The translations under genes were made by a program, and so were the position numbers. Positions 1 through 63,000 of a stretch of DNA of 64,000 bases are shown in pieces. Positions within the stretch are counted from its first letter, which is position 1, and each line of letters opens with the position of its first letter. The notes under the pieces are model-generated. The model had not been told where the DNA came from and did not search any database. It worked only from the letters and a program-made list of their open reading frames with translations. This stretch comes from Closterium sp. NIES-65 (taxonomy: Eukaryota > Streptophyta > Zygnematophyceae > Desmidiales > Closteriaceae). The DNA lies in the NCBI GenBank assembly GCA_948144175.1, contig CANXME010002417.1, forward strand, positions 62,001-126,000, in the 5' to 3' direction.

Positions 1-3000
1 GAACCCTACGTAAACTAGCTAGGTTTTACTACTACTGTTTTCTCTTTTGCCAAACCTTCTCCTTGGAATGTCTGATCACACGAAGGCGTACAATGACTCC
101 TCAGTAAGCTGCCTGCAAGGAAGGGGAACTCAGCAAGAGGAAGATGCAAGTGCTTCACTGCTACCTGTAACGGCAGGAGCAGCAGCAGCAGCACTTGTGT
201 CCTGGTCTGGTGAAGCCCTGGTCCCTGGGAATGCTCTCACCACCACTTGGCCCCACCCGCTCCTTTCCTTCCACCCGCTCCTTCCCTTCCACCCGCTCCT
301 TTCCTTCCACCCGCTCCTTCCCTTCCACCCGCTCCTTTCCTTCCACCCGCTCCTTCCCTTCCACCCGCTCCTTGCTGGGTCCATACAAATATCGCATTCA
401 GGCAAGCCACTGACCTTTGATTGCGGGGGCGTCACTCGTAGCAGCCGCTGCACCACGTTCAGAGCAGCATTGCGATACGGCAGTAGGACGAGCACTTTAG
501 GGCGAGTAAAACCCTGGTCCCTGGGGATACTTTCCACCTCCACCAACTCCTTCCCATCCACCACTCCTCCGCCTGGCCCCTTCCTCTCTCGCTTCCCTCC
601 TTTTCCTCCCTTTTTGAAAAGCACACTCGCCGTCCCTTCTTCCTCCATCTCCCCGCCCTTCCCACCTTCCTCCGCTTGCCCCCCCTCCTCCTTCGCCTCC
701 GCCTCCTTTTCCCTCTCTTCTTTCCCCTTCCCCTGTTCCCTTGCTTCTAAGCTTGCAACAGCTGTATCTGCTGCATTACCCCCCTGACTGCTCCCTTTCT
801 CCCCACCACCTTTACTCCTCTTCTTCCCACTTGTACCAGCGGCGGCATCAGCAGCGTCAGCTGCAGCAACAGCAGCAGCAGAGGCTCGATTGAGCTTGTC
901 GTTGTTCTTGGTGATGCGGTCGCGGGTGTGAAACACATGGTTCAGCTGGGGAGAGGAGTCGGGCAGACGACGGGGATAGAGGAAAGGAAGTGAGAATGGT
1001 ATTGGAAGGGAGAAGTGACGCGGAGGAAGCAGCAGTTGCTCGGTTGAGCTTGCCGTTGTTCTTGGTGATGCGATCCTGCGTGTGAAAGACGTGGTTCAGC
1101 TGGGGAGGAGAATAGAGGAGGAGATGAGAGGGAGAAAAGATGGGAAGAGAGGGGGGTAGTGAAAAAGGGGAGTGACACACAGGAAGCAGCAGAGGCTCGG
1201 TTGAGCTTTTTGTTGTTCTTGGTGATGTGGTCCCGCGTGTGAAAGACATGGTTCAGCTGGGGAGAGGAGAGGGGTGGGAGAGTGAGCGGGGAAGAGGACG
1301 GGATGAGAGGGGGATCATGAGGAGAGAATTGACTCAGAGGCTCGATTGATTTTGCTGCTCTTGGTGATGAGGACACGCGTGTGAAAGAGCCACGTGTAAT
1401 AAGTGAGTTTTTGAGACGTCTCAAAAACTCACATATTACAGTTTGCCGCTCTTGGTGACGAGAACACGCGTGTGAAAGAGGTGGTTGAGTTGGGAAGAGG
1501 TGGGGGGAAGAAGAGGCGGGGGAAGGAGGAGGTGAGATTACGGGCAGGAAGGAAGTTAAATACAGGACGTGAAAAGCAGTTCAGCTGTGTGTGTGTGTGT
1601 GAGTGAGTGAGTGTGTGTGTTCGTGTGTCTGTGATTGAGTGTGTGCGTGTGTGTGTGTGTATGTGGCTAAGGGACAGTTGAGAGAAGGTGCAAGCAGGTG
1701 AATTAGCGCACACACAGTACCGTGTCCATCAGGTAGGAGGCGTCTGTGAGCGCCTGTGCGTCCAGAAGCGAGGCAAACTTGGACTGAGCTTGCAGCACAG
1801 TTCAACAGCAGGTGCAAGCAGGTGCAAGCAGGCAAGGGGGCAAGGGGGCAAGGGGGCGTACAGCGTGCAGCAGGTAGGCATCGGTGAGGGCCTGTGCGTC
1901 CAGCGGCGAGCCGAACTTAGACTGGGCGCAGGGGCGGCGCGAATGCAGCACATCTGAGTATGACGTGCCTGGGGGAGGGAGGGGGGAGGAGGGTGAAGGA
2001 GGGGAGAGAGGGGAAAGGATGGGGAAAGGGAGGAGGGGGAAAGGGGGGGGGGGGGGGGGGTTGGGGGAGAAATAATCCAAGGGGGTGGGGAAGAGGAGGG
2101 ACTACGCTTCAGGCACCTCAGAACCAGGAGATTTTGTATGATGCCTGGCGGGTGGGAAGAGAGATGCTGGGCAGAGAAGATATGGGTAGAGAGGACATGG
2201 GCAGAGAGAATATGGGCAGCGAGGATATGGGATGCGATTGGGAGGTGGGGATGGGATGGGCAAGAAGGACATGGCACAACGAGTGACTCACAGAGGGAGA
2301 AGAACTGGCGCTGATGGTCGCTCGCAAACCCATCATTGCTTGATCCCAACATCCCAAGGGCTGCTTCCTCTGGCGACGGGCCATCAGCCGATCCATCCAC
2401 CGATCCATCCCCTGCTGTGGCTGCCAGCCCCTTCTTCCCCCTCTTCCGCTTCCCAGCCCCCTCACTGTCCCCATTCACGTTGCTCCTGCTGCTTTTAGCA
2501 GCCTTATTATCGCTGTTGCTGCTGTCTCCGCCCCCCTGCTTCACTCTCAGCAGCGGTGCATAATCCTCCTCCACCACTCTCCCCCAATGCTCCTTCAACC
2601 GCCCCTTGAACCCCTCCCACGCATCCACAACCTCCTCCTCCTGCTCCTTGTCCTTTTCTTTACTCTTCGCCTTATCCTTACCCTTGACCGTGCCTTTTTC
2701 TTTACCCTTATCCTTATCCTTTTCCTTATCTTCGTCCTTATCCACAGCAGCGGCCGTCCAAGGCAGTGCATGGTCAGCCACCCACTTGCTGCCCGGGACA
2801 CCCATCGCCGGCCATTCATACGAAAACTTGAGTGGCTTGCCGCCCCCTGCACCGCCCAAGCCACCGGACCTGCCAGCGCCACTGCCACTGCCCTTGGCCT
2901 TGCCTTTCCTTCCTGCAGCAGCAGCAGCCGCAGCAACAGCAGCAGCAGCAGAGGCAGTAGCAGCAGCGGCGTCAGCAGAGCCTCCCAGCGAGAGGAGCTC

Positions 3001-7578: not shown

Positions 7579-10500
7579 TCACCAATAAACATGGGAGTCA
7601 GGCTTCCACGGCTTGAAGTCATTCGCCGGCCCAGCAGTCCAATTCAGCCTCTCATCCCCAGCCTGTAAATACGTCGATGGTGGGTGGGGAAGCTTCCTCG
7701 CAAGCCCGTTCAGCACCTGGTGAAACACATCCCCTTCCTGCGGCTGCGGGTGCCCCAGCACGACAGCCTGCCTGATCGCATGAGACGCCAGCCGCTGCTG
7801 CATCGCCAGCACTCTCCTCGGCCCAATCCCAGCCAGAATCTCATCTAGTTTCGGCACGTCTTTTTCCGGGACGAAAACTGCGATTTCCCGCCACGGGATG
7901 ACGTCAGAGAAGGGGAGGACGATGTTGTCGGCGACAATGACGGGGATGCAGCCGAAGAAGACGGACTCGACAAGGCGGGGCGACCAGGGCGCCCAGCCAA
8001 GCGGGCAGAGGCAGAAGAGCGAGCGCTGCATGTCCTCGTAGTAGGACGCTGGGTGCTCCGCTGACATGTCAAACAGCGGGTTGCTCTTGAAGTTCTCCCA
8101 CATGGACGCACGCGCACCCCTGCAGGCCAGGAGGTACGGGACATGAGGGGGAAGGGAGGGGTCGGATGCAGTTATGAGGCCACACACGGGAGTGCTCTGC
8201 TGACATGTCAAACAGTGGGTTGGATATAAAGTTCTCCCACATGAATGCATGCACACCTTTGCAGGCCAGGAGGTACAGGAAAAGGGCACACGGGGAGCAG
8301 GGAGAGCAGGAGGTAGAATGCTGGGAGTCAAAGATTGGAAGAGTGGGAGAGGAAGGGGGATGGAAGGGCCCGCAGCCAAGCAGCATACTAAGTTGCATTC
8401 AGCTTCACCTGGCATAGTACCCCCCCTTTGCGGGTTGTTGTCGCAATCATAGAAGAGCACACGGAAGTAGACGAAGATGGAGCGCAGCGCATCAACAGCA
8501 TGCTGTAAACACTCTCCACAAGCTCAGCCCATCCGAGAGCACAGCCTCACCTGGCATAGTAGCCCCCTTGAGGATCGTTGTTGCGGTCGTAGAACAGCCC
8601 ACGAAAGTACACAAAGATGGAGCGGGGAGTGTCGGGGGGGATGCGGCGGCGGTGCATGTGGCCCGTGGGGGCGAAGGGAGGCACCACGATGCTGCCGGGC
8701 TTGTGGCACACGTGGTGCGACTGCCCAAACGTCTGCACCAGGGTTGCTCGCTTCAATAGCGGCATGATGCCGCGGGTGATGGCCTTCTCTTCCTGAGGAG
8801 GATCGTATGAGGGGAGGAGAGAGGGACAGAGGGCGAGAAGCTTGTGGCACACGTGGTGCGACTGCCCAAACGTCTGCACCAGGGTTGCTCGCTTCAATAG
8901 AGGCATGATGCCGCGGGTGATGGCCTTCTCTTCCTGAGGAGGATCGTATGAGGGGAGGAGAGGGGGACAGAGGGCGAGAAGCTTGTGGCACACGTGGTGC
9001 GACTGCCCAAACGTCTGCACCAGGGTTGCTCGCTTCAATAGCGTCATGATGCCGCGGGTGATGGCCTTCTCTTCCTGAGGAGGATCGTATGAGGGGAGGA
9101 GGGACAGAGGGCGAGAAGCTTGTGGCACACGTGGTGCGACTGCCCAAACGTCTGCACCAGGGTAGCTCGTTTCAATAGCGGCACGATGCCGCGGGTGATG
9201 GCCTTCTCTTCCTGAGGAGGATCGTATGAGGGGAGGAGAGAGGGACAGAGGGCGAGAAGCTTGTGGCACATGCGGTGCGACTGCCCAAACGTCTGCACCA
9301 GGGTAGCTCGTTTCAATAGCGGCACGATGCCGCGGGTGATGGCCTTCTCTTCCTGAGGAGGATCGTATGAGGGGAGGAGAGAGGGACAGAGGGCGAGAAG
9401 CTTGTGGCACACGTGGTGCGACTGCCCAAACGTCTGCACCAGGGTTGCTCGCTTCAATAGAGGCATGATGCCGCGGGTGATGGCCTTCTCTTCCTGAGGA
9501 GGATCGTATGAGGGGAGGAGAGAGGGACAGAGGGCGAGAAGCTTGTGGCACACGTGGTGCGACTGCCCAAACGTCTGCACCAGGGTTGCTCGCTTCAATA
9601 GCGGCATGATGCCGCGGGTGATGGCCTTCTCTTCCTGAGGAGGATCGTATGAGGGGAGGAGAGAGGGACAGAGGGCGAGAAGCTTGTGGCACACGTGGTG
9701 CGACTGCCCAAACGTCTGCACCAGGGTAGCTCGTTTCAATAGCGGCACGATGCCGCGGGTGATGGCCTTCTCTTCCTGAGGAGGATCGTATGAGGGGAGG
9801 AGAGAGGGACAGAGGGCGAGAAGCTTGTGGCACACGTGGTGCGACTGCCCAAACGTCTGCACCAGGGTAGCTCGTTTCAATAGCGGCACGATGCCGCGAG
9901 TGACAGCTTTTTCTTCCTGGAAATCGGGTATCGGGATGTGAAGTGAAAGCAAGAGGGAAGGAGAGTAAGTGACTTGTGACACACATGGTGCGACTGCCTA
10001 AACGTCTGCACCAGCGTGGCTCGTTTTAGAAAAGGCATGATGCTGCAGGTGAAAGCTTCCTCTTCTTGGAGGTTGAATGCAAGGGTAAGGAAAGGGAGTG
10101 CGGGGCTCGCGGCACACAGGGTAGATTTTGCCCCTGTGCTGTATAAGCCTGCCTATCATGCTAGTAGCACTACGCAGTATGACTCTCTCCCTGCTCTCTG
10201 CCTTCCCTGTTCTCTGCTCTCTGCTCTCTGCTCTCTGCTCCCTGTCCTGCACTCTTCGTTACAGTCACTCACCTCATAGTGAAAGCACGCGCCGAAATCG
10301 TGCGGCGTGATGAAGAAGTGATCCGCGCCGTCCGTTCGGTTCCAGTACGGCCACCGCTCCGACACCAGCGTGATCGCCGCGCGGATCATGCGAGGCGACC
10401 GGAACGGCAGCGGCAATCCCGAGGCCGTCAGATCGCACGTGGGGTACACGGGCATGTAGAACCAGTCCGCCTCGTCCGGGTTCGTCGTACGTACGGGGCT

Positions 10501-11367: not shown

Positions 11368-12854
11368 GGCGGTGAGGTAAAATCAGTGATCGATGATGAG
11401 CTGTAGTGTACTTTATGGGAAGAGTAATGTGGAGAGGAGGTAGGAGGACGCTGATGATGGCTCAAGGAGGGCTGACTCGTTGAGAAGTATGAGAAGCAGC
11501 TCCAATGATAACTACAGCGGGCTTTGAAAAATGGCTAGAATACGGTTTTGAGGAGTCTTAGAACGTCTCATTATCACTTAAATTCAGCGAGAATATCTGA
11601 CAAGATTCATAGCGATGCGGAGTGATCCATTGGCATCACACCACGAACCGAGCAGCGCGAGCCTTAATAGGCTTGGTCGTTCGTGTTACTCGAATGTGAT
11701 GGGATAAATCTATTCACGACTCACGGGTCACGACTTCTCGGCTGTCACCCTCGATTCCGTAGGGGGTTGATCGTTTTCAAGGTAGGCTAATGAGAAAAGC
11801 TTGAATACGGAAACGCGAACAGTACGTAGCAACAGGGCTGTTGACCTGTCTTTTGATATTGCACGAAACATCTAAGGCAAAAGGCCTTCCTACCTAGAGT
11901 CGCTCGTTGAATGTGAGTCCAGACTCTAGACTAGAGTCTAGACAGCCACGGCTTCTGTGCTGTGGTATTTTGTGGTTCATCCATTGTTCCCTCTCTCCAG
12001 CTTGTACTTGGTTTTGCTTGTTCGGCAGTCAGAGCTGGCAACCCTCTTTCATTGCGTCCCCCAACTTCCGATAAAAAGAGTGAAAGGTAAAGGTTACCAC
12101 GATTTTCACCTGCATTCCATAATCTCCATGATTTCGCGACAAAACTTGCTGTAGTTTCGTTGCTATGCTGGATAACTACTAGGAACATTTCTATCCAGAG
12201 AAATCTGAGTGTATTCTCAGAGAAACGTGATACTCGAGGGGCAAAAGGAAAGCCAGTCACTCAGTCAATTGTGACTGAAGCGATGGCATAGAAGTGCGCG
12301 ATACGGGGGTTCGATCACAATCACGGGGAGGTATCGGTCGTGAGTCGTGACTCATGCGCTACTGTATCCATTGCGCGCCCTAAAAAGTTTCGATTGGCTG
12401 ACTCATCCAGTGGACTGCTTCCGAGCCCCAGTGTCAGAATCATGGCATCCTTTAACTAGAACAAACGTTACAGTCACCGTGACTTCCATAAAAGTTGCAC
12501 ACGTGTCCCATTGCAGTCAAACCTGCGGATTTTACGGAGTTTAAACTACAAGTATAGAAAGTAGAATAAAATCGAAGCTGAAACCACGAAAGCAAAGCAT
12601 TAGCGCGTACAGACCTTCGGAACTTTTTCGAGGTTCGAGTTTTCAAACTTCGAATGCCTTTTTCGAGCTACTGTAGCCCTCCCCCCCTCCCCAATTGCTC
12701 CCTTCGCACCTCGAAATGTCTTTCCCGTGCCACTGTCGTGAAATGCTTCAAACCCTCACTCCTCTCGACCCTCTTTCAGCTGTTTCAACTCTCGACTTGA
12801 AAGCTCCGACGGAACCGCACCGCACCTCACCGCACAACGGTTAGTATTGGGATT
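11368..12854. promoter_or_regulatory. putative bidirectional promoter region
   Basis: About 1.5 kb between the starts of the divergent GT47 and zf-GRF-like genes. No ORF is convincing and I see no clear TATA box. Short inverted repeats are present, for example AGACTCTA-GAC-TAGAGTCT near 11921-11939. Promoter function is inferred from gene orientation only. Confidence 0.4.
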
Positions 12855-15785: not shown

Positions 15786-15833
15786 GCTCCTCTCTGCCTG
15801 CTGTCGCTTCGGCGCCAGGCCCCCCACCTCCTC

Positions 15834-15920
15834 GCCTCGTCCAGGGTTAGGCCTCTGGTGACTTCTTTTGAGTCGACTCAAAAGCGCCTCGTCCAGGGTT
15901 AGGCCTATGGTGACTTCTTC
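15834..15920. repeat. direct repeat separated by 20-bp perfect palindrome (member B)
   Basis: CTTTTGAGTCGACTCAAAAG at 15865-15884 is a perfect palindrome. It is flanked by two copies of a roughly 34-bp segment starting GCCTCGTCCAGGGTTAGGCC (15834 and 15886) that differ at one base. The segment lies next to a diverged copy of the PET100-like C-terminal coding part (15786-15833). Confidence 0.9.
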
Positions 15921-18630: not shown

Positions 18631-18746
18631 AAGAAAAAAACTAAAACCCACTCGGATGGCATGCCATCCGAGGGAGCCTCAACCCTAAAATGTTAGGGTT
18701 GAGGCTCCCGAATGGCATGCCGTAAGCCATGGGGTTTATTTTTTCT
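18631..18746. mobile_element. fold-back (MITE-like) element
   Basis: Nested inverted repeats. The outer arms run AGAAAAAAACTAAAACCC at the left against GGGGTTTATTTTTTCT at the right. Inside is a perfect 22-bp palindrome centred on GGCATGCC (18652-18673) and a stem GAGCCTCAACCCTAA / TTAGGGTTGAGGCTC with a short loop (about 18676-18709). GGCATGCC recurs in the right arm. It has no coding capacity, and no target duplication was identified. Confidence 0.65.
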
Positions 18747-19735: not shown

Positions 19736-19899
19736 GGCAGAGGAGATATAGACAGGTGGGGAGGGAAGGAGAGAGGTGGGGAGGGAAGTGTGGCAAAAGG
19801 TGACTTTTGAGTCGACTCAAAAGTCACAGGCAGAGGGGATATAGACAGGGACAGGGAGGGAGGGAAGGAGAGAGGTGGGGAGGGAAGTGTGGCAAAAGG
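19736..19899. repeat. 65-71-bp direct repeat separated by 28-bp perfect palindrome (member C)
   Basis: The 28-bp palindrome at 19800-19827 has the core TTTTGAGTCGACTCAAAA with GTGAC/GTCAC ends. The left flank 19736-19800 (GGCAGAGGAGATATAGACAG to GTGTGGCAAAAGG) is repeated at 19829-19899 with a few changes, directly after the palindrome. Confidence 0.92.
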
Positions 19900-21399: not shown

Positions 21400-24300
21400 T
21401 CATCCATAACCCCATTCTGCATCATCCCATTCTGCACCATCACTCGCTGCATCATCGTCGCATTCTCCATTATCATCACATGTATCATCACATGTATCAT
21501 CACATGCATCATCACATGCATCATCACAAGCATCATCACCAGCACTAATAACACTCTCGTCCTCCTCGCCACCAACCACAGCAAGTTGCCACTCTCCGAA
21601 GAAACCATTCCACAGCAAAACATGCTCCGCGGTCCTTCGACCAGTCACCACCAGCCGTGGCAGCAGCATCCCAACCTCCCTGCCAGCACGCCTCAACTCC
21701 CTCCACTTCCTAAACTCCACACTACCGTTATCGAAACAAGCTTCTCCACTCCCTTCACCCCTTCCCATGTCACCCTCGCTTCCACCTTCCCTGCTTCCAC
21801 CTTCCTTGCTTCCCCTCCACCGATCCCCAGCAATCACTCCAGGAGAAACCACCAGCCGCCGCAGCCTGAAATCCTGCAGCCCAAAGCACCCACTCCACCT
21901 CATCCTTTCCTCCTCATGCCCCAAACCCTCGCCTGCAATTTCCTCCTGCTCCTCACACCCCCCATCCACCGCCACCACTTCAGCCAACCCAGTTTCCCTG
22001 CTCTTCTCCCTGTTGCCAGCAAGTTCCCTGGCAACTGCTGAGAGGGCGACCAGGAGGGTAGACGACACCCCCGGGCATCCATACAGGTCCAGCAGAACCA
22101 GCCGCGGCAGCTGCAGCTGCAGTGGCGCGCCGGAAGCACTGCCTACACCAGCAGCAGCGTCAGGAGAAGATGAAATCTCAGGAGGAGGCTCAGGAGCACT
22201 GCCTGCTGCACCAGTAGCAGCGTCATCGGGTCCAGGTGAAATTTCAGGGGTACGCTCAGGTGAAATTTCAACGACAGCACTGCCAACAGCAGCATTCACT
22301 GCCCCACCCACGCTGCCGCCGCGCCAGCTGTCGCCGAACAGGGCCGCCACGATAGCAGCATCGTCCACCGCCGTCCGCGCCAGCCGCAGCACCTCCAGCC
22401 GCCCGCATCGCCTCGCCAGCTGGCGCAGCCCCACTGGCCCCACGTTCTCACAGCCACCCAGACTTAGCTGCACCAATCGCGTGCATCCGTTCACGAGTTG
22501 CCACGTGGACAGGGAGGAAGTGTGGGCGTGAAAGGAGCGCAGAGAGGAGGAGGAGGACGCAGGTGAGAGGCACTGGCTGCCACCATTGCCGCCGCCGCCG
22601 CCGCCGCCGCTACTGCTGCAAGTGATGCTGCTGCTGGTGTTGGTGTTGGTGCTGCTGGTCTGTGCTCCAGTGGCGACGCTTTTAGCAGAGAGGGCGAGCA
22701 GGAGGGAGGAGGCGGGAAGCAGATCCCAGGCCACGGAGTGATGGGGGAACGGAGTGATGGGGGAACGGACTGATGGGGGAACGGAGTGATGGGGGAACGG
22801 AGTGATGGGGGAACAGAGTGATGGGGGAACGGAGTGATGGGGGAACGGAGTGATGGGGGAACGGAGTGATGGGGGAACGGAGTGATGGGGGAACGGAGTG
22901 ATGGGGGAACGGAGTGATGGGGGGTGATATATAGACGGATGGAGGAGAGGCACGGCACCAGGGGGGTAGCTGAGCCTAACGCGCATGAGAAAGGGTTGTC
23001 AGCATCCTTGGGTGCTTCGGCGAGCAAGGAGAGGTGAGCCAGAAGAGCAGCCGCCGCATCGGCTGCATTGGCTGCATCGGCTGACTTTTGAGATGTCTCT
23101 ACAGCCGCCGCAGCATTATCAGCTGCATCAGCTGACCTCCTCGCCCGTCCTACTCCGCGGCGCTCTGTCGTTGCGTGTGCCGCCTCCCACTGCTTGTACT
23201 CCGGAAGGGGCGCGAGGCGGTATGACACGAGAGAGAGGCGCTGTAGCGACGGGAGGAGTGCGAGGAGGCGAAGCGAAAGAGCGTCTCCCAGGTGACAGAA
23301 TCCGCGCAGAGCGCGAGGGCTGTCAGGCGCGGAAGCTTGCTGGCCATGTGCTCTATGGACTCCGCGGTGTAGTCCCCTGGCACGTTGATGTTTAAGGCAC
23401 GGAGATTAGGGAGCGCGGCGGCGATTGAAAGCAGGTGGCGGGCGGAGAGGAAGTCGGGCTGCCGATGGGGCGCGCACAACGGGGGAGGCCGCGGCGGGGG
23501 GGGGGGATCCAATTAGGAGGCGGCAGGGGAGGTGGAGGACAACGCGGAGGGGATGGGAGGGGCGGAGGGGGTGGAGGAACACGCGGAAGGGGAGGGGGTG
23601 GCGGAGGAGGCGCATGAACACGCGGAGGGGGAGGGGGTGGCGGAGGAGGGGGCGCAGGAACACGCGGAGGGGGAGAGGGGGGCGGAGGGGGCGCATGAAC
23701 ACGTGGCGGGGGAGGGGGGGGCGGAGGGAGCGCATGAACACATGGCGGGGGAGGGGGTGGCGGAGGAGGGGCCGCATGAACACGCGGAGGGGGAGAGCGG
23801 GGAGGAGGAGGCGCGGGAACACTCGGAGGGGGAGGGGGTGGCGGAGGGGGAGGCGCAGGAACACGCGGAGGGGGAGGGGGTGGCGGAGGGGGCGAAGGAG
23901 CACGCGGAGGGGGAGAGGGGGGTGGAGATGGCGCAGGAACACGCGGAGGGGGAGGGGGTGGCGGAGGAGGAGGGGGTGGCGGAGGGGTAAGCGCAGGAAC
24001 ACACGGAGGCGGAGGGGTTTGCGGAGTGGGGGTGGACGATCCCGGCTCGGGGAATTGAGTGGCGTCACCATGACCCCACACCAGATCGGATCTCCTAGAT
24101 TGAGTCCTCTCAGCTATCTCCTCCTCATTGAACGCTTCCGAATCGCCTTCAGCGAGCGCGAGCGGGTTTACGCACGTCACCGGGCAGAGAAAGTGGTCGG
24201 AGCGCACACTCAGCGACTTGAGCTGACGTGGCACGGCTGGTAACAGCACCCTCTCGAAGTCTAGTTTGAGCATGGGTAGCGAATCCAGTAGCCGGCAGCT

Positions 24301-28660: not shown

Positions 28661-28722
28661 CACAGTCCCACTGTCACTGCGTGCTCTTCCCCTACTGCTT
28701 GCACTGCTTCGCTGTCGTCGTC

Positions 28723-44400: not shown

Positions 44401-44478
44401 CGCGCACCCGCCTCGCACTCACCTCCCTCTCCTCCTCCTCTCGCGGCTAGCGGCCGCTATCACTTGTCCTTGCCCCTC

Positions 44479-45585: not shown

Positions 45586-48134
45586 TGGGGCACTCAGCAG
45601 CAGTGGGGCCCTTCGCAGCAGTGGGCCCCCCCGCAGCAGTGGAGACCTACGGGCCCCCCGAGCACTGGGCGCAGTGGTGCCCCTTCTAGTCGGGGACCCC
45701 GCTCGGCCGGCCGCGACGTTGGTCCCTGTGTGTACTGGATCCTGACGGGTCCGCACAGGGGCACGTACTGCGGCCGCCCTGACCACTCTGCTGCACGCTG
45801 CTTCAGCCGTCTTGACGACCTGTACGTCCTGCACCACGGTCCCTCCGCTCCCCCGCCACCGCGCTGGGGACCACTCCTTGCTCGTGGTGTTGCTGTGTTT
45901 GATATGTCTATGGATGATGCTAGGTCTTATGCCATGTATGCTGATGTTGACTATAGTGCTGTCGGATCTGTTTACTTGCCTGTACCTAGCGTAGGATCTT
46001 TGCCTGTTGCTAGAGTAGGTGCTGGTGTAGGATCCTGTCTAGCTACTAGTACAGGTGCTCCCTCGGCGGACGCGTCGCTCTCCTTCACACTGGACTCCGG
46101 AGCGACGCAGTGCTTCTTCCGCGACAGCACGACTCTTACTCCACTCTCGGCGCCGGTTTCTGTAGCACTGGCCGATCCCTCTTCGGGACCGGTCATTGCG
46201 ACTCACGCCACTACCCTCCCGTGCCCAGCTGCCCCTTCCGGTTCTCTGACCGGCCTCCACGTTCCTACTTTCTCTAGGAACCTGGTTGGTGTGGCTCCTC
46301 TGGCGAGACAGCACGTCGGGGTCTGGTTTGAGCCTTCGGGTGACACTGCAGTCTGTGTGGACGGTGACACGTACGCCCCTCTGGCCACTTTTCGTCAGGA
46401 GCCGGGCTCTGGTCTGTACACCCTCCACACCGACACCCGTCCGGTTCCCCCGTCCCACCAGGTAGCCAGGTCCAGTCAGGTAGCTGTGCCAGGTCTAGTG
46501 GCTGCGTCGTGCTCGTGTCAGTCGCTGTCCCACCCTGCCCTCCTCTGGCACCACCGCCTTGGTCACCCGTCCCTCTCTCGTCTCCGCGCTATGTCCAGTC
46601 AGCGTCTTGTCTTAGGCCTCCCCCGCGACCTCCCGCCACTCCCGCCGTCCCCCGCTCCTCCGTGCGGTCCTTGTGTCCAGGGTCGGCTGCGCGCCACTCC
46701 TCACTCCTCCTCCCTTCGTCCAACCTCCGAGCCCTTTGAGACACTCCACTTAGACGTCTGGGGCCCCGCTCCACGGCTTGGACCTGAGCGAGAGAGCTTC
46801 TTCCTAGTGGTCGTTGACGACTACTCTCGGTACACCACCGTGTTCCCTTTGGCGAAGAAGTCCGACGTGACTTCTACGCTGATCCGGTGGCTGCTCGCCA
46901 CCGAGAGTACTCGTCGTCGTCGTGTCAGTTGTCTCCACTCCGACCGTGGGGATGAGTTTCGCTCCGGCATTCTCGCCAGATTCTGTGCTGAGCAGGGCAT
47001 CACCCAGTCCTGGACTCTTCCAGACTCTCCACAGCAGAATGGGGTTGCTGAGCGCCGGCTAGGCCTGGTCATGGAGATTGCCCGCACCTCCATGATCCAC
47101 GCCTGCGCGCCCCATTTTCTGTGGCCCTACGCGGCTCGGTACGCCGCTCACCAGCTGAACCTCTGGCCTCGCGTCTCTCGGCCAGGGGCTTCACCGACCA
47201 GTCTTTGGACAGGGTCCCCTGGTGTTGCGTCGAGGTTTAGTGTCTGGGGCTGCTTGGCGCTTGTCCGCGACACCTCTGCGGACAAGCTCTCACCTCGCGG
47301 CGTCCCCTGTGTCTTCCTTGGTTTCCCTGAGGCCTCCTCTGACTTCACCTTTTACCACCCTCCCTCCCACCGGTTCTTTGACTCTCGTGACGTCAGTTTC
47401 GATGAGTCCGTCCCCTACTTCGTCCGGTACCCCTGTCGAGGTCTCCCGGTTCCCCCCCCTCCCCTCTTCCTCGCCCCAGCTCCTCCTCCTCCCACTCCCT
47501 CTCCTCCGGTACCCCCCCCGGTTCCCGCTCCGTCAGGTGTGTCGCAGGCTACCCCCCCTCCCTTGGTCCCCCCCCAGGTCTCTCCTCCTTCCCCACAGTC
47601 GTCCTCACAGCCTCCGCAGCAGCCGTCGGCGCTTCCTCTCCCGGCCACTGCGGACTCTGAGGGTGTTGGTGCTCGAGGTGAGGGCTCTGGCGGTGCTGGT
47701 TCTGGGGGTGTTGGAGTTGGAGCTGAGCGTGCACCTGCCGCAGATGCACGTCCCGAGCGTGTTGGAGTCGGTGGTGGAGCTGGAGCTGGTGGTGTTTCTG
47801 GAGCTGGAGAGTCTGGGACTGGTGCTGGTGCCACTGGCGGCGCCACGACTGGGGGTGCGGGTACACCTCCTACAGGTACTGGTCGTGCTGCCGCAGGGGT
47901 TCCTCGCTCTGGGGGTGCTCAGCCGGGTCCTGTCGAGGGTGGAGCCGGTTCTTCTTCGTCGTCTCCTGACACCACTCCTCCTCCTCACCCCTACCCGACT
48001 CGTTACCAGGCCCTTCGTCGTCTAGAGCGTGAGGAGCAGCAGCGTTTGGAGCGTGAGAGGTCGGAGGTTCAGCAGCGGGTGGAGCGTGAGCGGTTGGAGT
48101 TTCAGCAGCAGCAGCAGCAGCAGCAGCCACAGCC

Positions 48135-48176
<42 letters not shown>

Positions 48177-50370
48177 GCCGCAGCTGCCGGAGCAGCCTCC
48201 GGCCCCTGTTTCTGGCCTTCGGGCCCTTGGTCTCCCCTCCTCTCCTCCTGTGTTCGGTCCCACGTTTCCTCCTCCGGACTCCACTCCGGCTGTCTTCCCT
48301 CGTTCTCAGTCTCCTCCGTCCCCCCCTCCTCTCGCCCACACTTGGGCCTCTCGCCCTCCTCGTGCTCGTCCCTCGTCCCCTGTCACTGACCTCCGTACCG
48401 TGTTGTTTCGTCCTCGTCCTCCTCGTTCTCCTCCGTCTGTCCTTCCTCGTCCTCCTGAGTCTTCCCTCACTGCCTCCCTGTCCACTCCGGTCACTGACTA
48501 CTACCGCACGTACCGCCCCACTCTCTCTCGTGTTCTCGCCTCTCTTGTTACAGACCCTCGTGCCTCTCCTTCCTCCGTCGCGGTCCTCACTGCCGCTGTC
48601 ACTGACTTTACTGCTACGCGTCACCTTGACTACGCCACTCGAGTTGTGGCAGCTCCTCCTGTCCGTCCTCTGTCCGCCGGGGGTGTGTGTGCCCTTGGCT
48701 GTGACGTCCTAGAGGACAGACAGTTTGAGCTAGAGTTCCTGGCAGCTGCTTCGCCTCATCTCTGTGCCATGCTGCTCACTCCTGAGGGAGACCCCGACGC
48801 TCCTGACATACCTACTCCTCGCACTTACGCTGAGGCAGTGTCAGGGCCTTGGGCCTCTCAGTGGAGAGCTGCCATGGACGCAGAGATGGCCTCCTACAGG
48901 TCCACATGCACTTACGTTGACGAGGTTCCCCCCCCAGGGGCGAACATTGTTGACGGCATGTGGATCTTCAAGGTGAAGCGGCCGCCGGGATCTCCCCCAG
49001 TCTTCAAGGCACGCTACGTGGCTAGAGGGTTCAGTCAGCGCGAGAGGGTTGACTTCTTTCAGACCTTCGCGCCCACCCCGAAGATGACCACTCTTCGGGT
49101 TTTACTGCACGTAGCAGCGCAGAGAGACTACGAGCTACACTCTCTTGACTTCTCCACTGCCTTCCTCCAGGGCTGCTTACACGAGGAGATCTGGCTGCGT
49201 CGTCCTCCGGGCTTCACTGGCACTTTCCCGCCTGGGACCCAGTGGAGCCTCAGACGACCGGTCTACTGTCTCCGCCAGGCACCCCGTGAGTGGCACGACA
49301 CTCTCCGCTCTACTCTCTCCGACCTCGGGTTTGAGCCGTCTTCCGCCGACCCGTCGCTGTTTGTTCGTCGTGGCCGTACACCTTTCTTCGTCCTAGTCTA
49401 TGTTGACGACTTGGTTTTTGCCACGGCCGACACAGCTGCACTGGCGGAGGTGAAGTCCGAACTGCAGAAGAGACACACCTGCACTGACCTTGGGGAACTG
49501 CGCCGCTACCTTGGCCTGCAGATCTCCAGGGACAGAGCCGCTCGCACCATCACTCTCACTCATTCACACATGGTGCAGCAGGTTCTTCAGCGGTTCGGGC
49601 TTCAGGACTCTTCTCCTGCCCCCACTCCTCTTGCTGTAGACCACAGACTCACTGGGCCTTTTCTTGACGAGCCGTTCGAGCCCAGTGGTCCCTACGCAGA
49701 GCTGGTGGGCTGCCTCATGTACCTGATGACGTGCACTCGCCCGGACCTCGCCTTCCCCCTTAGCATCCTGTCTCGCTTTGTTGCGACTGGGAGACACCGT
49801 CCTGTTCACTGGGCGGCGGCTAAGAGGGTGGCGAAGTACCTTGGCGCGACATCAGGCATGGGGCTTGTACTTGGAGTGACACAGCCAGTTGTACTCACCG
49901 GTCACTGTGACTCTTCCTACGCTGACGACGTTGAGACTCAGAGGTCTACGCAGGGTTACTGTTTCAGCCTGGGTTCTGGAGCTGTTTCGTGGAGGTCTAC
50001 TCGGTCCTCCTCTGTTGCGACTTCTACCGCAGAGGCCGAGATCTACGCTGGGGCCCTTGCTGCTCAGGAGCTACGCTGGTTGACCTTTTTGCTCATTGAC
50101 CTTGGTGAGCGGCCGAGCTCTGCACCGACCCTGTTTGCTGACAACAGGGCGATGATTCTCCTGTGTCGTGAGCCTCGACTGGAGAGCCGAGTGAAGCACA
50201 TCGACGTCAGGTACTTCCTCCTTCGAGAGTTGCAGAGACGCGGACAGGCTCGTCTGGACTTTGTGGCCTCCGAGGCCAACACTGCAGACATCTTCACCAA
50301 GGCCCTCCAGCCTTGTGACCACCGTCGGTTTTGTCTGCAGTTAGGCCTCGTTGAGACTGGGTCTAGTTGA
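45586..50370 (+). CDS. Copia 3 pol region (same frame as gag)
   Basis: Open for about 1595 codons after the TAG, in the gag frame. Starts with more QQW units, then C-x12-C-x4-H-x4-C (CVYWILTG.. YCGRPDHSAARC), protease LDSGAT, WHHRLGHPS and CGPC, integrase DVWGP, HSDRGDEF and QQNGVAERR, a Pro/Gln-rich spacer (CAG repeat at 48100-48180), reverse transcriptase YVDDLVFA and RNase H, ending ADIFTKALQPCDHRRF. All catalytic motifs look intact. The first ATG after the TAG is at about 45906. Confidence 0.92.
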
Positions 50371-50592
50371 CTGCTATAGGGTGCTCTTTGTCTGTTGCTT
50401 GCTTGTACCTTATATATATATATTTGTTTGCACACTTTAGGACTGGCCTTGTGGCCCTTTGCTTGTGCTCAGATTAGGTGGTGACGTTGTGATCCACCCT
50501 GAGCTTTGTTTTCTGTCTCTTGTTTTTGACTGGTCTTGTGACCGTAGGTTGCTTGTTGTTGATTGGCCTTCCCCACTTAGGCTATGGGGGTG

Positions 50593-50709
50593 TGTCAAAT
50601 ATTATAGCCTGTAGTGGGTTGGGCTATATGGGGTACAACTAGTTAGGGTTAGGTGATGTACCCCAATTCTGTCAACACAACGCATTCCGCTGTAGTTCTC
50701 ATTCTGACA
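50593..50709 (+). repeat. 3' LTR of Copia 3
   Basis: 117 bp, identical to the 5' LTR; a purine tract (GGCTATGGGGGTG) precedes it. Confidence 0.95.
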
Positions 50710-54400: not shown

Positions 54401-56233
54401 TTGTCTCCTCACTCCCCACCGCCCTCACATTCTCAATCCTCCTCCTCAACGCTCCTGCCTCCGCCTTCCTGTCTGCCTCCACCTTCGTCTCTACCTCCCT
54501 CCCCTCCTCCCTCACTTCCTCATTCACAATCCTTCCTTCTCCTGCGCTGTCTCCAGCTCTCGTCTCCAATCTATGGTCAATTCCTTCTCGTTCTGACCGT
54601 AACCCACGCTGCATCAGCTCCTGTAACCGCTGAGTCAGCACCTCGGGCGAGTGGATAAGAGCGTCAGCGCCAAATGTCGGCTGCTGGGGCCGCCACGTGG
54701 GATCGAGGGGGTAGGCAGGCGAAGCGGCTGTTGTTTGCCTTTCTTGTTGGCAATCGGGGGAAAAGGTAGCTGGGTCGGAAGCAGCATTGCTGGTGTGTCT
54801 GCTGTCACTCATACTTCTACTGCTGCTGCTGGAGGTGTCACTGTCACTGCAGCCATCATCAGTGCTGCTACTGCTGCTGCTGGTGCTGTGAGCAGAGGCG
54901 GAAGTATCAAGCCGAACGGCCTGCTTGGCTTGCTGGCGCAGGGAGGGGAGGTCAAAGGAGAAGGGCTCGCCCACCACCACGCTCACACGCTGGTTCCACA
55001 GCGGAATCAACGGCCGCTTGTTGTTGCGGTAGTTCTGCGGGAGGATCTGCAGCATTGATGAGGGGTAAGGGCCATGTGGGATGGACGAAAGAGGGGAGGT
55101 CAAAGGAGAAGGGCTCGCCCACCACCACGCTCACTCGCTGGTTCCACAGCGGAATCAACGGCCGCTTGGTGTTGCGGTAGCTCTGAGGGAGAATCTGCAT
55201 GCAGGGGAGTGAGGGGAGAGACGTAGTTGTTGCAGAGACGAAAAGAGTTTTGCAGCCATAAAGCTCGCCCACCAACACCACCACGCTCACACACACGCTG
55301 GTTCCCTGGCAGGATCAACGGGCACTTGCTGTTGCGGTAGTTCTGAGGGAGAATCTCCATGCCGGAGGGGAGGGGAGCGAAGTGGCGATTCGAGAAGTGT
55401 TAGAAAGGGAAGAGGCTCGCCCATTGACCACCACGCCCACACACACCACAACGCTGGTTCCACAATGGAGGATCAACGGTCACTTGTTGTTGCCCTCACT
55501 CGCATCGACTCAAAAGCACGCTCACACACGTTACAATGCGAGCCGTTCCACAATGGGGGATCAACGGTCGCTTGCTTGTTGTTGCGCATTGGAATTACCC
55601 GTGAGCGACACCTTTCCTCCGTGCACTCTCACCCGATCCAAGCCGCCCCGCCGTGCTCCACACCACCACACAGATGAGGGACGGCACAACGCAGACCGCA
55701 TTTAACAGTCATGCAATTGCAATACCCTCACCTGCTCTCCCCCTCATGGCACACCCACCCACTTGATGCCGCTGTGTCCCACGCTGAGGAGGATGGACAG
55801 GGGCAGCGAGGGGCACAGGCGGTCCAGTAGATTCGAGTCACGTGGGGTATGGACAAACCCCCCTTTTTCGCCTTTCCCCATTGCACACCCACCCACTTGA
55901 TGCCGCTGCGTCCCACGCAGAGGAGGATGGACAGGGGCAGCGAGGGGCACAGGCGGTCCAGCAGACTGAAGGGTCAAGTGGCGTGCAGACCAGCAGGCAC
56001 GCCCCCATCCGGCCTTCTCCACACACACACACACACTCACCCCCTTTCCTCAACACACACATACCTTCTTCCCCCCCTACCCTACCCACCCCCTTCTTCA
56101 ACACGAAATCACACCTTCTTTCAACTCACCCGCTCAAGGCCGCTGTGCCCCACGCAGAGTAGAATGGGCGGGGGCAGCGAGGGGAGAGGCGGTCCAGCCC
56201 AGCAGACTGGCGAGTCAAGTGGGACGTTGATCA

Positions 56234-56265
<32 letters not shown>

Positions 56266-58637
56266 CACCATCCCGCCGCCTTTCTCCATAACGCACTCAC
56301 CCGCTCCAAGCCGCTGTGCCCCACACAGAGCAGGATGGGGGGGGGCAGCGAGGGGCAGAGGCGGTCCAGCAGACAACATTAGAATCACCCAGCGACTTGT
56401 TGCTCTGTGCACACTCACCCGCTCAAGGCCGCTGTGCCCCACACAGAGCAGGATGGGCGGGGGCAGCGAGGGGCAGAGGCGGTCCAGCAGACTGGCGAGG
56501 CCCCACTTGAGGCGCGGGAGGGGGCCGTGCTGCTGTATGATTCTCGCCTCTGGGAAGATGTTGAGCTGTAAACGAAGGGGAAGGGGAGAAGGGGAGGAAA
56601 AAGAGTATAAGGCTACTCCAGTTAACCACTTGAGGAGTGGCAGGGGGCCGTGCTGCTGAACTGAATGATGCGCGTCTCTGGGAAGATGTTGAGCTGCCGT
56701 GGAGGGGTGGGAAAGGTGGGGGAGGAAGGTTCTGTTGGAACTAGACGTGATTTGATTTGACTTCTGAGGCGGATTAAGCTAGTAAGGTGCTGAATGACGC
56801 GTGCCGCTGGGAAGAGGCTGAGCTGCGAATGAAGGGGTTCCAAGGGCACTTCATGGCATAGCATATTGTAGCATCGTGTAATACCACATTCACTCCATAC
56901 TCCTCTTACACCCACTTGACCCGCCTTCAATACATACCCTTTTTTTGTACAACAGGCGGACTCATTTTGATGTCGTTGCAAACAAAATTGTCGAAGATGT
57001 CAAACCGGTGTAGCTGCAGGATTTACCCAGCCGCCCAGGTCTATTTGTAAAAGCTACCCTGCCACCCAGATGTACGTGCGAAACTTACCCAGTCGCCCTG
57101 CTGTAACCGCAGCAGCGCCTCGTCCATGCCTGGCTGGAACACTCCTTGGTTGCGCGTTATCGGAATGCTCTTGCCTGCCACGGAGACATGTGTCAGGGCG
57201 ACATGTGTCAAGGCGACATGTGTCAGGGCGACATGTGTGAGAGCGACATGTGTGAGAGCGACATGTGTGAGAGCGACATGTGTGAGAGCGACATGTGTCA
57301 GAGCAACATGTGTCAGAGCGACATGTGTCAGAGCGCTTGAGACGAGTCGAATCAAAAGGCGAAACCAAGTACTTAATGAATGTTATCCGATGAAATGAGA
57401 GTAAATGACTGATTCTGAAGATTTACGCATCAAGGATCAGGAGGGAATGATTGAAATCACCGATGCGGAAGACGCAGGGAGGGAATGTCGTACCTATCCT
57501 GAAGATGTAGGAGTCGAGGAGGATGCCAGTGAAGCAAATCTCCGAGGCAGTGAGCGTCCAGCGACCTTTGAAGCGCCTCAGAAGTGAAACTCACGAGCCG
57601 AGGATCAGAAGGGCGGGAATCAGAAGAGGGGATGTCGTACCGATGCGGAAGATGTAGGAGTCGAGGAGGCCGGTGAAGCAGATCTCCGAGGCAGTGAGCG
57701 TCCAGCGGCACAGCTTGGGGTCTCTTATGCGCAGGCCCCTCTGCCCGCCCCACAGCAGCGGATCGTCTATCCTGCGGACGGGCAGGCGAAGCATGGGGTG
57801 GGTGAGTGAAAGGCAGAGCATGGGGAGGGTGAGTGAAAGGCAGAGCATGAGGTTGCAGGGAATATCGAGGGATCCGTGATGCGCAGCCCCCCCTGCTCGC
57901 CCCACAGCAGCGTGTCTCGTGTTTCTCTATCCTGCAGGCAGGTGGGTAAGATATGGGATGGGTGGGTGACAGGCAAAGCAAGGGGAGAAATGAGGGATTT
58001 GCGCGGGGTGCAGGTGAGTTGAGGGGTGCAGGAAAGGCAGGAATGTGCGAACAAGGGAAAACAAGAGACATGTGGAGGACACAAGACGGTGACAGATCAA
58101 ACCAAGAGAGACACGTGGAGGGCACACGATGGAGACGAATCAAACCAACCCCCCCAAGTGAGAGAAAAGAGAGGGGTTGGGGAAGTGGGCGAGGAGAGGG
58201 GCGTGGACGGGAGGTGCGGGAGAGCGGGAGAGCGGGGGAGCGGAAAAGCGGGAGAGCGGGAGAGCGGGAGATCGCGAGCGGCGGGTGCGCGGGTGAGCGG
58301 GTTGGAGCCAATCGTACGTTGCCATGTGGTTGCTGACGGTGATGAGCGGCGTGCCAGCTGGCCGAGAGTTTACGAGATCCAGCAGCGTCTGCTGATTGGT
58401 CACCTCCATGCGATTCAGGACGTTCATGTAAAAGTACGACATCGAGCTAATTGTTGCTATCGCCACGCGCCTCGGAATGCCGAACAGGTGCGACGCCTCC
58501 GCGGGAGGCGCCAAGGCTTCGGAGATCCAGGAACTCGCGCCGCGCCGGCCTTGCGTAGCTGCCGCCGCCGCTGCTCGAGCCGCGGCCGACGCGGCTGCGG
58601 AGACGAGCGGCTTGGAAGCTCGCACGCCGTTGCTCAT
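54309..58637 (-). CDS. TAZ: tafazzin-like phospholipid-lysophospholipid acyltransferase
   Basis: Homologue of plant and animal tafazzin, the mitochondrial PlsC-family transacylase that remodels cardiolipin. Exons 58637-58318, 57771-57641, 57174-57089, 56565-56419 and 55046-54309 join in phase to 473 residues. Blocks in family order: PLITVSNHMAT|IDDP across the first intron (NHX4D catalytic motif), LLWGGQRGLRIRDPKLCRW, SEICFTG..SYIFRIG, GKSIPITRNQGVFQPGMDEALLRLQQGDW, LNIFPEARI (FPEG-type motif with Ala for Gly), PRLKWGLASLL, ILPQNYRNNKRPLIPLWNQ and VSVVVGEPFSFDLP. An Ala-rich N-terminus may be a targeting sequence. The tail after the domain (about residues 255-473) is a Ser-rich linker and a charged helix, longer than in Arabidopsis. 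Introns are full of extra exon copies. The Gly-to-Ala change leaves activity uncertain; family assignment is sure. Confidence 0.87.
54945..55595 (-). repeat. four to five tandem copies of the tafazzin exon-5 start
   Basis: ILPQNYRNNKRPLIPLWNQRVSVV and its acceptor recur at 55046-54950 (true exon), about 55195-55085, 55362-55255, and as shorter, diverged pieces at about 55457-55492 and 55545-55584. The last two are 36-40-bp direct repeats (GTTCCACAATGGRGGATCAA) with the half-palindrome TCGACTCAAAAG (55505-55516) between them (member E). Confidence 0.82.
55740..56565 (-). repeat. tandem copies of the tafazzin exon-4 3' half
   Basis: RLCPSLPLPILLCVGHSG with a following GTGAGT-type donor recurs five times: about 56510-56419 (true exon), 56380-56300, 56215-56125, 55980-55890 and 55835-55750. 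A 29-base C run lies between two copies at 56235-56263. Copies of the 5' half (LNIFPE..) lie upstream at about 56695-56625 and 56830-56790. Confidence 0.85.
57185..57335. repeat. 15-bp minisatellite GAGCGACATGTGTGA
   Basis: About ten copies in the tafazzin intron. It ends at CTTGAGACGAGTCGAATCAAAAG (57336-57358; written here to show a loose likeness to the palindrome family). Confidence 0.85.
57440..57940 (-). repeat. duplicates of tafazzin exon 2
   Basis: Around the true exon (57771-57641) lie a partial upstream copy at about 57930-57860 (CAG acceptor, DTLLWGEQGGLRITDP) and a downstream copy at about 57580-57500 (RWTLTASEICFTG..LDSYIFRI with GTACGA donor), plus a scrap at 57455-57475. Confidence 0.8.
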
Positions 58638-60003: not shown

Positions 60004-63000
60004 ATGAGGACGGATGGGAAAGACGGCAAGGACGGCAAGGACGGGGAGCATGGCGAACACTCGAGAACGCATTCGATGAAGAAGAAGATGGGATCGGTGC
60101 TCGGATGGGCGGCCAGGATTCTCCCGCAGTCCACCAGCGGCGGCAAGGGGCTCGGCGCGGAGCGGCGGAGCGAGAGCGAGGTGGAGCGGCGCGTGGTGGA
60201 GGCGCTGCGGCGGCGGAGAGAGGAGGAGGAAGCTTCCGGGAAGAAGCGCATCGTGCATTTCAATACGCTGGTGATGAAATTTGCCAAGTCGGACGAGGCG
60301 TTCAAGCAAATCCGCAAGCAGTTCGACCAGTACGGTGCGCGCTCCCAGCCGCATTCTCGAAGGATTAGATTCTAGGACAATCAGAGTATAGGAGAGCTAG
60401 ACTTTTGGAGGACGTAATTCTAGGAGGTTATGTTCCCACGATTTAGGTCCCACAATTTCTGTCCCACGATTCACGTAGTTCCACGATTGGGAGCCTAATC
60501 TTTCGCCTTTGTAGTTCCACACCTGCCGCTGCAACGCTCCGCAGACGCATTGAGTTTGCAGCCGCGCTGAGTGTGAAAGATTGCTCTTCCCTCCCTTCTC
60601 TCTCCCCCCCCCTTCTCTCTCCCCCCCCTTCTCTCTCCCCCCCCTTCTCTCTCCCCCCCCCTCTCTGACTTTTGAGTCGACTCAAAAGTCACCTAGATTG
60701 CTCTTCCCTCCCTTCTCTCTCCCCCCTCCCCCTCTTCCCCGCTTTCCCCTTTCCCCCTCCGAGCAGACAATGACGCAAGCCAGTCGATTGATCTGGAGGA
60801 GCTGCGAGCCGGCACTTATCCCCCACCAGCTCCCACCAACCTCCAACCCCCATCAACCCCCACCATCCCCCTCCAACTCCCTCCAACCCTTCCCCCCTCC
60901 ATCACCGCCCTCCTTCCCCTACAACAGACAAGGACGCGAGCCAGTCGATTGATCTGCACGAGCTGCGGACGTGTCTGGCGGCGCTGGGCGTGCGGATAGA
61001 GGAGGAGGTGATGCAGCTGTACCGCGAGGCCGACATGGATGGACTGCTGCTGTCCTCCCCCCCCCTCCCCTCAACAGACAAGGACTCCAGCCAATCAATC
61101 AATTGACCTGGAGGAGCTGCGGACGTGTTCCCCTTTTTCCCCCGTCCCCCACCGTGTCCCCCACTACCCCCCCCCCCCCCTCCCTTCAACAGACAAGGAC
61201 GCGAGCCAATCAATTGACCTGGAGGAGCTTCGAACGTGCCTATCAGCGCTGGGCGTGCAGATAGAGGAGGAGGAGGTGATGCAGCTGTACCGCGAGGCTG
61301 ACATGGACTGCTGTGATGGCGTGCACTTCAAAGAGTTCATTCTGCTGCTCGCGCTGCTCTACCTGCTGCAACCCAACGTACGTGTGGCTGTGGGTGTTAT
61401 ACGCATGTGTAGCTGTTGGGGTTGAACGTACGTTTAGCAGCCGTGGAAGGAAGTGCGAGTTGGGTATTAGGTGGGACCAAGGGCCTATGTGGGTATGGCT
61501 CGCCGCTGCACCGCGAGGCTGACATGGACTGCTGTGATGGCGTGCACTTCAAAGAGTTCATTCTGCTGCTCGCGCTGCTCTACCTGCTGCAACCCAACGT
61601 ACGTGCTGTGTTGGACATGCGTTAGAGGTATTTGCGTCTGCTCTCTCTCTCTCAAATGCCTCGGAATCGGGACTGGAAATGACTTGTGCGCGTGATGGCG
61701 TGCACTTCAAGGCGTTCGTTCATCCTGCTGCTCGCGCTGCTCTATCTCCTGCAACCCAACGTACGTGCGGGTTGTTGTTAGGCGCAATGTGTTGCTTCCG
61801 GAGACTGCTGTTCTCACCCCGTATGCTCACCTCTTATGTTCCGTTGGTGCTTCCTTCTTTCACCAGGCACACTTTGGTCTGCCAGAGGTGGAGGAGGCGT
61901 TTGAGCTGATAGCGGACGCGTTCAACTTCTTTAATGCACAGGGAGACCTTCCTCCCTTACTCCCCTCATACACTCCCGCCACATGCTCGCTTGTTGCTTC
62001 CCCTGCAGGCGCACTTCGGTACACCAGAGGTGGAGGACGCGTTCGGGCTGATAGCAGACGCGTTCAACTTCTTTGACACCACGGGGGAGGGCTTTCTCAC
62101 ACAGGCCAAGGTGCAGGCCGCCATGACCACTGGCAGGGACTCCTCCCCCAGCCGCATCGCTGGGCAGAGATTTGGTAAGAAGAGAGGCTGGGGACCTGGG
62201 GTATGTGTGTGGGTGGGTGGGTGGGTGGGGACATTGAGACAATAGGGCAAGGCCGGTGGGCTTTCTCTTGCAGGCCAAGGTGCAGACCAAGGTGCAGGCC
62301 GCCATGAGCAGCGGCAGAGACTCCTCCCCCAGCCGCATCGCTGGGCAGAGATTCGGTGAGTGCTGGGGGGAGTGGGTGAGAGAAATGGGCCGGAAGAGAG
62401 AGTGGTGGAAAATGGTTGGGGCATGAAGGATTTCTCACTCAAGCCAAGGTGCAGGCCGCCATGTGCAGCGGCAAAGTCTCCCCGCCCAGCCGCATCGCCA
62501 GGCAGAGATTCGGTGAGGGAGTAGGGTCACACAACCCTGGGCTGTAAGGGAGTAGGTTCTCACAGGGAACAGCTTCCTGGCGCAGGCCAAGGTACAGCAC
62601 ACCATGAGCAGCGGTCAGCACTCCTCCCCAGGGCAGAGACGTGTGAGCGCTGGGGATGGTGTGGGTGAGAGAGGAGAGGGTGAGAGAAATGCTACAGAGG
62701 GGAGGGTGCAAGGAGGGCGTGCGAGGAGGGTGTGCAAGGAGAGGGTTGGGTTTTGAGCTCTGAGATGGGATTCAACTGGACAGGCAGTATCTGTCAATGC
62801 GTTCTTGTTTGCCTATCTCTCTGTTTCCTTCGCTCTCGTTCTCGTTTGATTCTCCCTTTCACAACTCGATCAATCACACCCTCATCACCATTATCTCATG
62901 TAGCAGCTGCATCAGGAGGAGCACCACCAGCAGCAGCAGCAGAAGACATCTCCCTACCACCACCAGCACATCTACTGTTCCTGCTGTCCCACACCCACGG

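Follow-up and report, generated by a model that had tools for sequence, protein, structure and literature searches.

The locus and its palindromes

The window analysed here is a 64,000-bp stretch of nuclear DNA from the alga Closterium sp. NIES-65 (contig C2119, positions 62001-126000 of an 874.08-Mb assembly), in which exon-like segments and Copia elements are accompanied by numerous local duplications and by a family of short palindromes that forms the subject of this report. For this strain, PMC10407611 describes an assembly of 876 Mb, for which Canu and Arrow were applied to PacBio reads, followed by linked-read scaffolding and Pilon correction.

A preliminary description, made from the window alone, had placed these palindromes between the two copies of locally duplicated segments, and its palindrome coordinates proved correct on rechecking against the sequence. 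Perfect palindromes with a GAGTCGACTC centre occupy 15865-15884, 19800-19827 and 60666-60691, while the palindrome at 1395-1440 (46 bp) has a GAGACGTCTC centre and a single arm mismatch. The six junction members recognised earlier are retained, and a seventh that had been missed (site G, 57561-57588) is added to them. The features at sites A to G are given below; none is assigned a strand.

1351..1389, site A left copy, a UTP25-like exon segment, 92% identical to 1442-1480
1390..1441, site A insert, containing the 46-bp palindrome 1395-1440 with an ACGT centre and two arms, CACGTG at the left end
1442..1480, site A right copy, 92% identical to 1351-1389
15833..15865, site B left copy, a 33-bp target, 97% identical to 15885-15917 and single in paralogue L047
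15866..15884, site B insert, close to core-only, within palindrome 15865-15884
15885..15917, site B right copy, 97% identical to 15833-15865
19736..19799, site C left copy, 89% identical to 19829-19898
19800..19827, site C perfect palindrome of 28 bp with a TCGA centre, read from the sequence
19829..19898, site C right copy, 89% identical to 19736-19799
23082..23100, site D, a one-armed degenerate member and the weakest of the set
55505..55516, site E, a one-armed degenerate member with copies 55432-55492 and 55517-55581 (82%) on either side
57561..57588, site G, a decayed member with a GCGC centre at a duplication junction, matching the consensus at 20/26 positions
60578..60624, site F left copy, 91% identical to 60695-60740 and followed by a 16-bp minisatellite
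60666..60691, site F perfect palindrome of 26 bp with a TCGA centre, read from the sequence
60695..60740, site F right copy, 91% identical to 60578-60624

The consensus match of site G compares with a maximum of 19 positions in 60 simulated windows, and the site, identified from its sequence alone, adjoins an 85-bp duplication (57479-57563/57626-57707, 89%), covering the final 3 nt of its left copy before extending into the spacer. At site D, the half-palindrome reported earlier is present, but its flanks are weak, consisting of an imperfect 32-bp match in CAG-like sequence with a local score of 11.5-15. The duplicated segments had been described as sharing nothing with each other, which holds with one exception, a weak inverse match (75%) between the purine/pyrimidine-rich flanks of two sites, 19758-19887 and 60602-60731. 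The UTP25-like exon at site A is part of an existing tandem exon array (874-1480).

Two further candidates for decayed members were rejected: 57339-57357, which has no flanking repeat, and 56757, which matches the consensus at 15/26 positions, the chance level by sequence, although it is repeat-flanked. The former consists of an ACGT-type left half joined to a TCGA-type right half and lies where a 15-bp minisatellite ends. No clear flanking repeat was found at the window hairpins 18672-18709 and 11917-11943, the first of which is 38 bp long and contains telomere-like AACCCTAAA sequence.

Genome-wide abundance and flanking duplications

The family can be summarised as a core, TTTTGAG-NNNN-CTCAAAA, with a palindromic centre and optional complementary arms, giving a total length of 18 to ~52 bp. 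The genome search suggested in the preliminary description established that it recurs throughout the assembly, the 18-bp core being present with up to two mismatches at 41,723 sites, compared with 14 for a reversed control, which corresponds to roughly one copy per 21 kb. The exact ACGT-centred core occurs at 5,047 sites, compared with none for its control. The earlier account captured a small part of a far larger family, and had not recognised its four or more centres, the covarying arms of the ACGT type, the arrays, or the unrelated fillers in most other spaced duplications.

For the analysis of flanks, 20 regions of up to 10 kb around exact core matches and 20 small regions around ACGT-centred matches were sampled among the matches listed, together with 17 further small regions, 15 of them around ACGT matches and 2 around TCGA arrays. 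Regions were chosen by position alone, blind to their flanks. At an anchored flank score of at least 20, 59 of 71 palindromes from the first region set and the window were flanked by direct repeats, the figure for random positions in this DNA being 96 of 600 (Fisher p ~2e-30). Arrays were not collapsed in this comparison, which left out palindromes less than 130 nt from the end of a sequence as well as random positions close to a palindrome. When exact-core loci were counted at a score of at least 12, 62 of 76 (50/59 plus a later 12/17) were flanked, as against 120 of 600 random positions from the fetched loci and the window (p ~2e-26); in these locus counts the best member represents a locus, whereas a random position is a single trial, and two of the 76 loci, L063 and L064, have a 45-bp unit in common. 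Local duplication is itself common in this DNA, with a repeat scoring at least 30 within 10 nt on both sides at 5% of window positions (every 20 bp). The junction position first seen in the window therefore characterises most of the exact-core loci examined, well above background, and we regard it as very likely that a recurrent short palindrome lies between long direct copies of its local target.

Overall, the duplications range from ~13 to >100 bp. In 48 non-array copies, with 130 nt of flank searched, they measure 16-127 bp, and in a strict set of 26 they measure 20-83 bp (median 48.5). Miniature inverted-repeat transposable elements (MITEs) and fold-back transposons resemble the Closterium family in having inverted repeats, no coding capacity, high copy number, subfamilies and a direct repeat created on insertion. 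An extremely reduced MITE-like DNA transposon, moved by a cut-and-paste transposase, would explain the terminal inverted repeats, which here take the form of perfect palindromes, as well as the copy number and the subfamilies. However, MITEs and fold-back transposons make short duplications whose length is fixed (PMC10741241 gives 2-12 bp for the superfamilies it treats), whereas the palindromes are accompanied by long and variable ones. In addition, the 18-bp core encloses no internal region, and lone TCGA-type half-sites, not counting those less than 30 nt from a full match, number 2 in 262 kb, so that no parent element of greater length is visible in those 262 kb. A MITE-like transposon is accordingly disfavoured and appears very improbable.

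Possible artefacts were also considered. The motif has no match in 72,556 plasmid records, which speaks against the cloning or sequencing linker that had been raised as a concern; its 24-mer form is absent from the bacterial and archaeal genomes searched, and the 18-mer core is absent from the viral contigs searched. An assembly artefact is unlikely, judging from the sequences themselves, since the flanking copies have diverged and the insertion at site B is also present in a second segment of 96% identity (L046).

Architecture of the core, centres and arms

At least four centres occur in the family, namely TCGA, ACGT, GCGC and AATT. Among 102 sites with at most two arm mismatches, those with exact arms comprise 42 TCGA, 9 ACGT, 4 GCGC, 2 AATT and 2 non-palindromic centres. 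In the 42 exact TCGA copies, GAC directly precedes the core in 26 and GTC directly follows it in 22, the longest form seen being CGAGGTGAC-core-GTCACCTCG (L021). Fuller ACGT copies follow the pattern CACGTG-(~12 nt)-core-(reverse complement), and the longest perfect ACGT palindrome reaches 52 bp (L028).

The arms of the ACGT type covary. Using only the first copy of each cluster (42 loci), arm positions pair at 0.458 within a copy and at 0.305 across copies, a level of pairing attained in none of 20,000 permutations. Moreover, 9 or more of the 12 arm positions pair in 10 loci, and these show 10 different arms, compared with 1.1 expected. This covariation is compensatory change, reflecting either selection for pairing or, more simply, the copying of one arm from the other.

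The inserts are frequently incomplete or compound. With the core intact, some possess a single arm (L025, L037 and L059) and others neither (L042 and L032), so that the left arm, the right arm, both or none may be missing, depending on the insert. In L042 (110-209), a core-only ACGT insert in a possible coding exon has 41-bp copies on either side, the first of which thereby acquires a stop in one of its open frames; no Pfam domain was found in the piece searched. Partial multimers occur within single inserts (L010 6031, L013 9018 and L010 3576), the outcome anticipated if a polymerase primes repeatedly on a template that is self-complementary. At a larger scale, two or more palindromes lie within 200 nt at 19 of 88 loci, and arrays of alternating target and palindrome are found among the clustered loci (L008, L016, L023 and L024). 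On contig C18, L063 (1-601) and L064 (1-801) are arrays in which a 45-bp unit alternates with a TCGA palindrome, with 4 and 9 exact copies, respectively.

One-armed inserts and internal multimers could also be expected if a non-LTR (long terminal repeat) or Penelope-like enzyme used a small hairpin RNA as template at a nicked target site, a distant second nick producing long and variable duplications. Variable-length target duplications and truncated copies are features of non-LTR retrotransposons, short interspersed nuclear elements (SINEs) and Penelope-like elements, and end-to-end template jumping is typical of non-LTR-type enzymes. The palindromes share with these elements the variable duplication length and the truncation, and the genome does have reverse transcriptase genes, those met being of Copia and Gypsy type. 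On the other hand, the palindromes are self-complementary, no poly(A) or other fixed tail was seen, and truncation affects either side or both, in contrast to the fixed 3' end or tail and one-sided truncation of those elements. Nor was a clear nick motif found at either cut: in 26 clean duplications, a small sample in which weak motifs are possible, none of 40 positions exceeded the 99.7% null value, and two positions at about the 95% null value match chance expectation. Covarying arms would, furthermore, require an additional fold-back step. Target-primed reverse transcription is considered the main rival, ranked next after the fold-back and staggered-break route set out below, and is itself unlikely.

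Transposition of single-stranded DNA by an HUH-type enzyme, as for the bacterial REP and REPIN palindromes moved by RAYT enzymes, represents another possibility suggested by this architecture. REP sequences are described as high-copy palindromes of 20-40 bp (PMC3733652), and REPINs are likewise short high-copy palindromes that form hairpins and, according to PMC3116915, sometimes build tandem clusters together with their flanks. The Closterium family, by contrast, resides in a eukaryotic nucleus and has long duplications at most examined copies. No match to Y1_Tnp (PF01797), the domain of RAYT-type transposases, was found in six frames of the 874-Mb genome, with introns not modelled, while the control was positive in 5 of 14 genomes. 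We know of no long target duplications produced by HUH transposition. The HUH-type route is weakened by these observations, and we give it very little weight.

Order of events and proposed mechanism

At site B, a paralogue on contig C842 (L047; 71-73% identity) contains the 33-bp target as a single copy in each of two tandem units, and neither a TTTTGAG nor a CTCAAAA arm was found in 3.4 kb of this paralogue. A second copy of site B, on contig C1706 (L046), is 96% identical over 904 bp and carries the insertion. The single target copy that would precede a staggered-break duplication is thus seen at one site, in two paralogous units. Considering that the C842 paralogue has a single target and lacks the palindrome, duplication and palindrome go together at site B, and comparison of these sequences suggests that insertion and duplication probably arose as one event. 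The opposite order, in which a palindrome was present first and then caused the duplication, is disfavoured, since the palindrome lies between the copies rather than inside both and is missing from the C842 paralogue.

From these features, we infer that the family is mobile and has no coding capacity. The explanation that we favour as a whole, with a probability of roughly 0.5, combines fold-back copying with staggered breakage, and the route itself is proposed tentatively, at somewhat short of even odds. A strand ending in the core would fold back on itself, and its folded 3' end would prime copying of the preceding arm, generating a perfect hairpin or palindrome. This hairpin would then be captured at a double-strand break whose nicks lie ~13 to >100 nt apart, and fill-in of both long overhangs would leave it with a copy of the target to its left and another to its right. 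The long direct repeats formed in this way could subsequently undergo unequal exchange or slippage, giving rise to arrays of alternating target and palindrome. A dedicated nicking enzyme may be involved, and the lack of a clear cut-site preference fits opportunistic breaks. The fill-in step is modelled on the known origin of small tandem duplications, which are attributed to breaks whose overhangs are filled in and then joined (PMC8355091); in rice, insertions are reported to be frequently tandem duplications, a part of which also contain inserted sequence (PMC7407515, which cites Vaughn and Bennetzen 2014). The preliminary description had listed several possible mechanisms, of which two components are retained here, fold-back copying and a staggered break followed by fill-in; its interpretation is supported in part.

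Several observations weigh against this explanation. Neither an intermediate nor an enzyme was found, no search aimed at non-LTR reverse transcriptases having been made; eight ORFs (open reading frames) from the fetched loci contain LTR-element domains, ordinary domains or none. The empty state at site B, examined at this one site, could have resulted from recombination between direct copies. Arm covariation is weak in the TCGA (39 loci, p 0.0095) and AATT (6 loci, p 0.03) types and was not detected in GCGC (5 loci). Furthermore, 14 of the 76 exact-core loci fall under the duplication threshold; among them, L010 4287, L019 4651 and L058 carry short repeats of 13-17 bp, while no flanking repeat is visible at L031, L048, L061 and L062. 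Loci with one to three departures from the core are less often flanked (15/29), which fits a joint decay of core and copies, yet no significant correlation was detected between core decay and flank-copy divergence (rho -0.15, p 0.15).

The fillers of other duplications raise a related objection, since 21 of the 27 listed spaced duplications of the window have spacers without a palindrome, and the palindrome could simply be one of many fillers rather than an active element. In a passive process of this kind, breaks with long overhangs would be repaired by fill-in, abundant palindromic fragments would be captured, and copying would spread them without any selfish mechanism. When the window spacers of 28 local duplications were compared with one another, the palindrome family was the only clear recurrence; two pairs of non-palindrome spacers reached z 3.5-4.0 among the best 24 comparisons, through weak gapped alignments. 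The spacers show no similarity to sequence beside the copies in 20 of 27 cases (z under 3) and some similarity in 7 (z at least 3). This absence of clear recurrence among the other spacers agrees with passive filling, but more than 40,000 sites of one family, with variant centres and with complementarity maintained in the ACGT type, are difficult to derive from random fragments, and the passive account appears improbable.

Many local duplications measuring ~35-130 bp, separated by other spacers (20-120 bp) and not explained by palindromes, occur at 55742-56500, 57479-57990, 60760-62520 and 63115-63957. Some of their copies are 95-99% identical (e.g., 61284-61384/61505-61605), and they are apparently exon-centred.

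Comparison with other systems and novelty

Beyond the elements weighed above, the family can be compared with three further systems. Introners are likewise short elements dispersed in algal genomes, and in both cases duplications are able to alter gene structure. However, introners are described as making 3-9 bp duplications and as carrying or recruiting splice sites (PMC9860276), whereas the duplications in Closterium extend from ~13 to >100 bp and may themselves take in exon sequence. The small tandem duplications formed at staggered breaks resemble the flanks in consisting of tandem copies of tens of bp that sometimes enclose filler (PMC8355091; PMC7407515), but in Closterium the filler is a single recurrent palindromic family with tens of thousands of sites. 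Replitrons are mobile DNA of green algae and early land plants, for which PMC10741241 gives direct terminal repeats, a length of 0.9-4 kb with an HUH gene, and duplications of 2-8 bp; the palindromes have inverted ends, do not exceed ~52 bp and create long duplications.

No description of such an element was found among the best-ranked open-licence PubMed Central papers, a set that leaves most subscription papers and all preprints outside. Since plain membership in the MITE, introner, REPIN or replitron group is excluded by the tested features, which also disagree with SINEs and long interspersed nuclear elements (LINEs), the family is cautiously regarded as new in kind. In its strongest form, this would be a new class of mobile DNA, namely a bare self-priming hairpin of 18 to ~52 bp, without coding or internal part, that rebuilds its second arm by fold-back in each round, enters widely staggered breaks and duplicates a target of 13 to >100 bp each time. 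We advance this formulation as a possibility slightly less likely than its converse.

Genes and other elements around the palindromes

Many duplicated segments of the window appear exon-like, including the UTP25-like exon, a GT47 exon and others. The GT47 domain was identified by a domain search, while the names UTP25-like and IRX10-like, taken from the preliminary description or from known motifs, are presumed. The GT47 ORF is 99% identical to a protein of Closterium sp. NIES-64 over 58% of its length. The interval 8699-9919 holds a 141-bp unit repeated 8.7 times in tandem, and this unit carries what we take, from its motif, to be an IRX10-like GT47 exon. Outside the window, the insert of L050 lies between two 106-bp copies that include GatB coding sequence (PF02637, E 1.8e-9, right copy).

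Two Copia elements of the window, 27536-34908 and 35405-42802, are in inverted orientation and 91% identical over 7.5 kb, with LTR-like ends of 132-133 bp and mirrored GC-rich minisatellites. The 117-bp ends of a third Copia element, 43637-50709, show 100% identity.

Implications

The Closterium palindromes look like an undescribed form of mobile DNA, one which generates tandem repeats and additional exons. If this is true, a small sequence would be mobile without any transposon body, and the signature that it leaves, a long tandem copy together with a palindrome, would directly connect the insertion of short sequences with the origin of tandem repeats and of exon duplications. Large copy-number variation has been reported in the Closterium species complex (PMC10407611), and the palindrome family may bear on it, although this link is purely speculative. 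Repeated across the genome, such insertions would seed minisatellites and exon duplications, and a single alga would make two questions testable, namely what gives rise to the small, filler-containing tandem duplications of plants and algae, and what minimum of sequence is enough for a mobile element.

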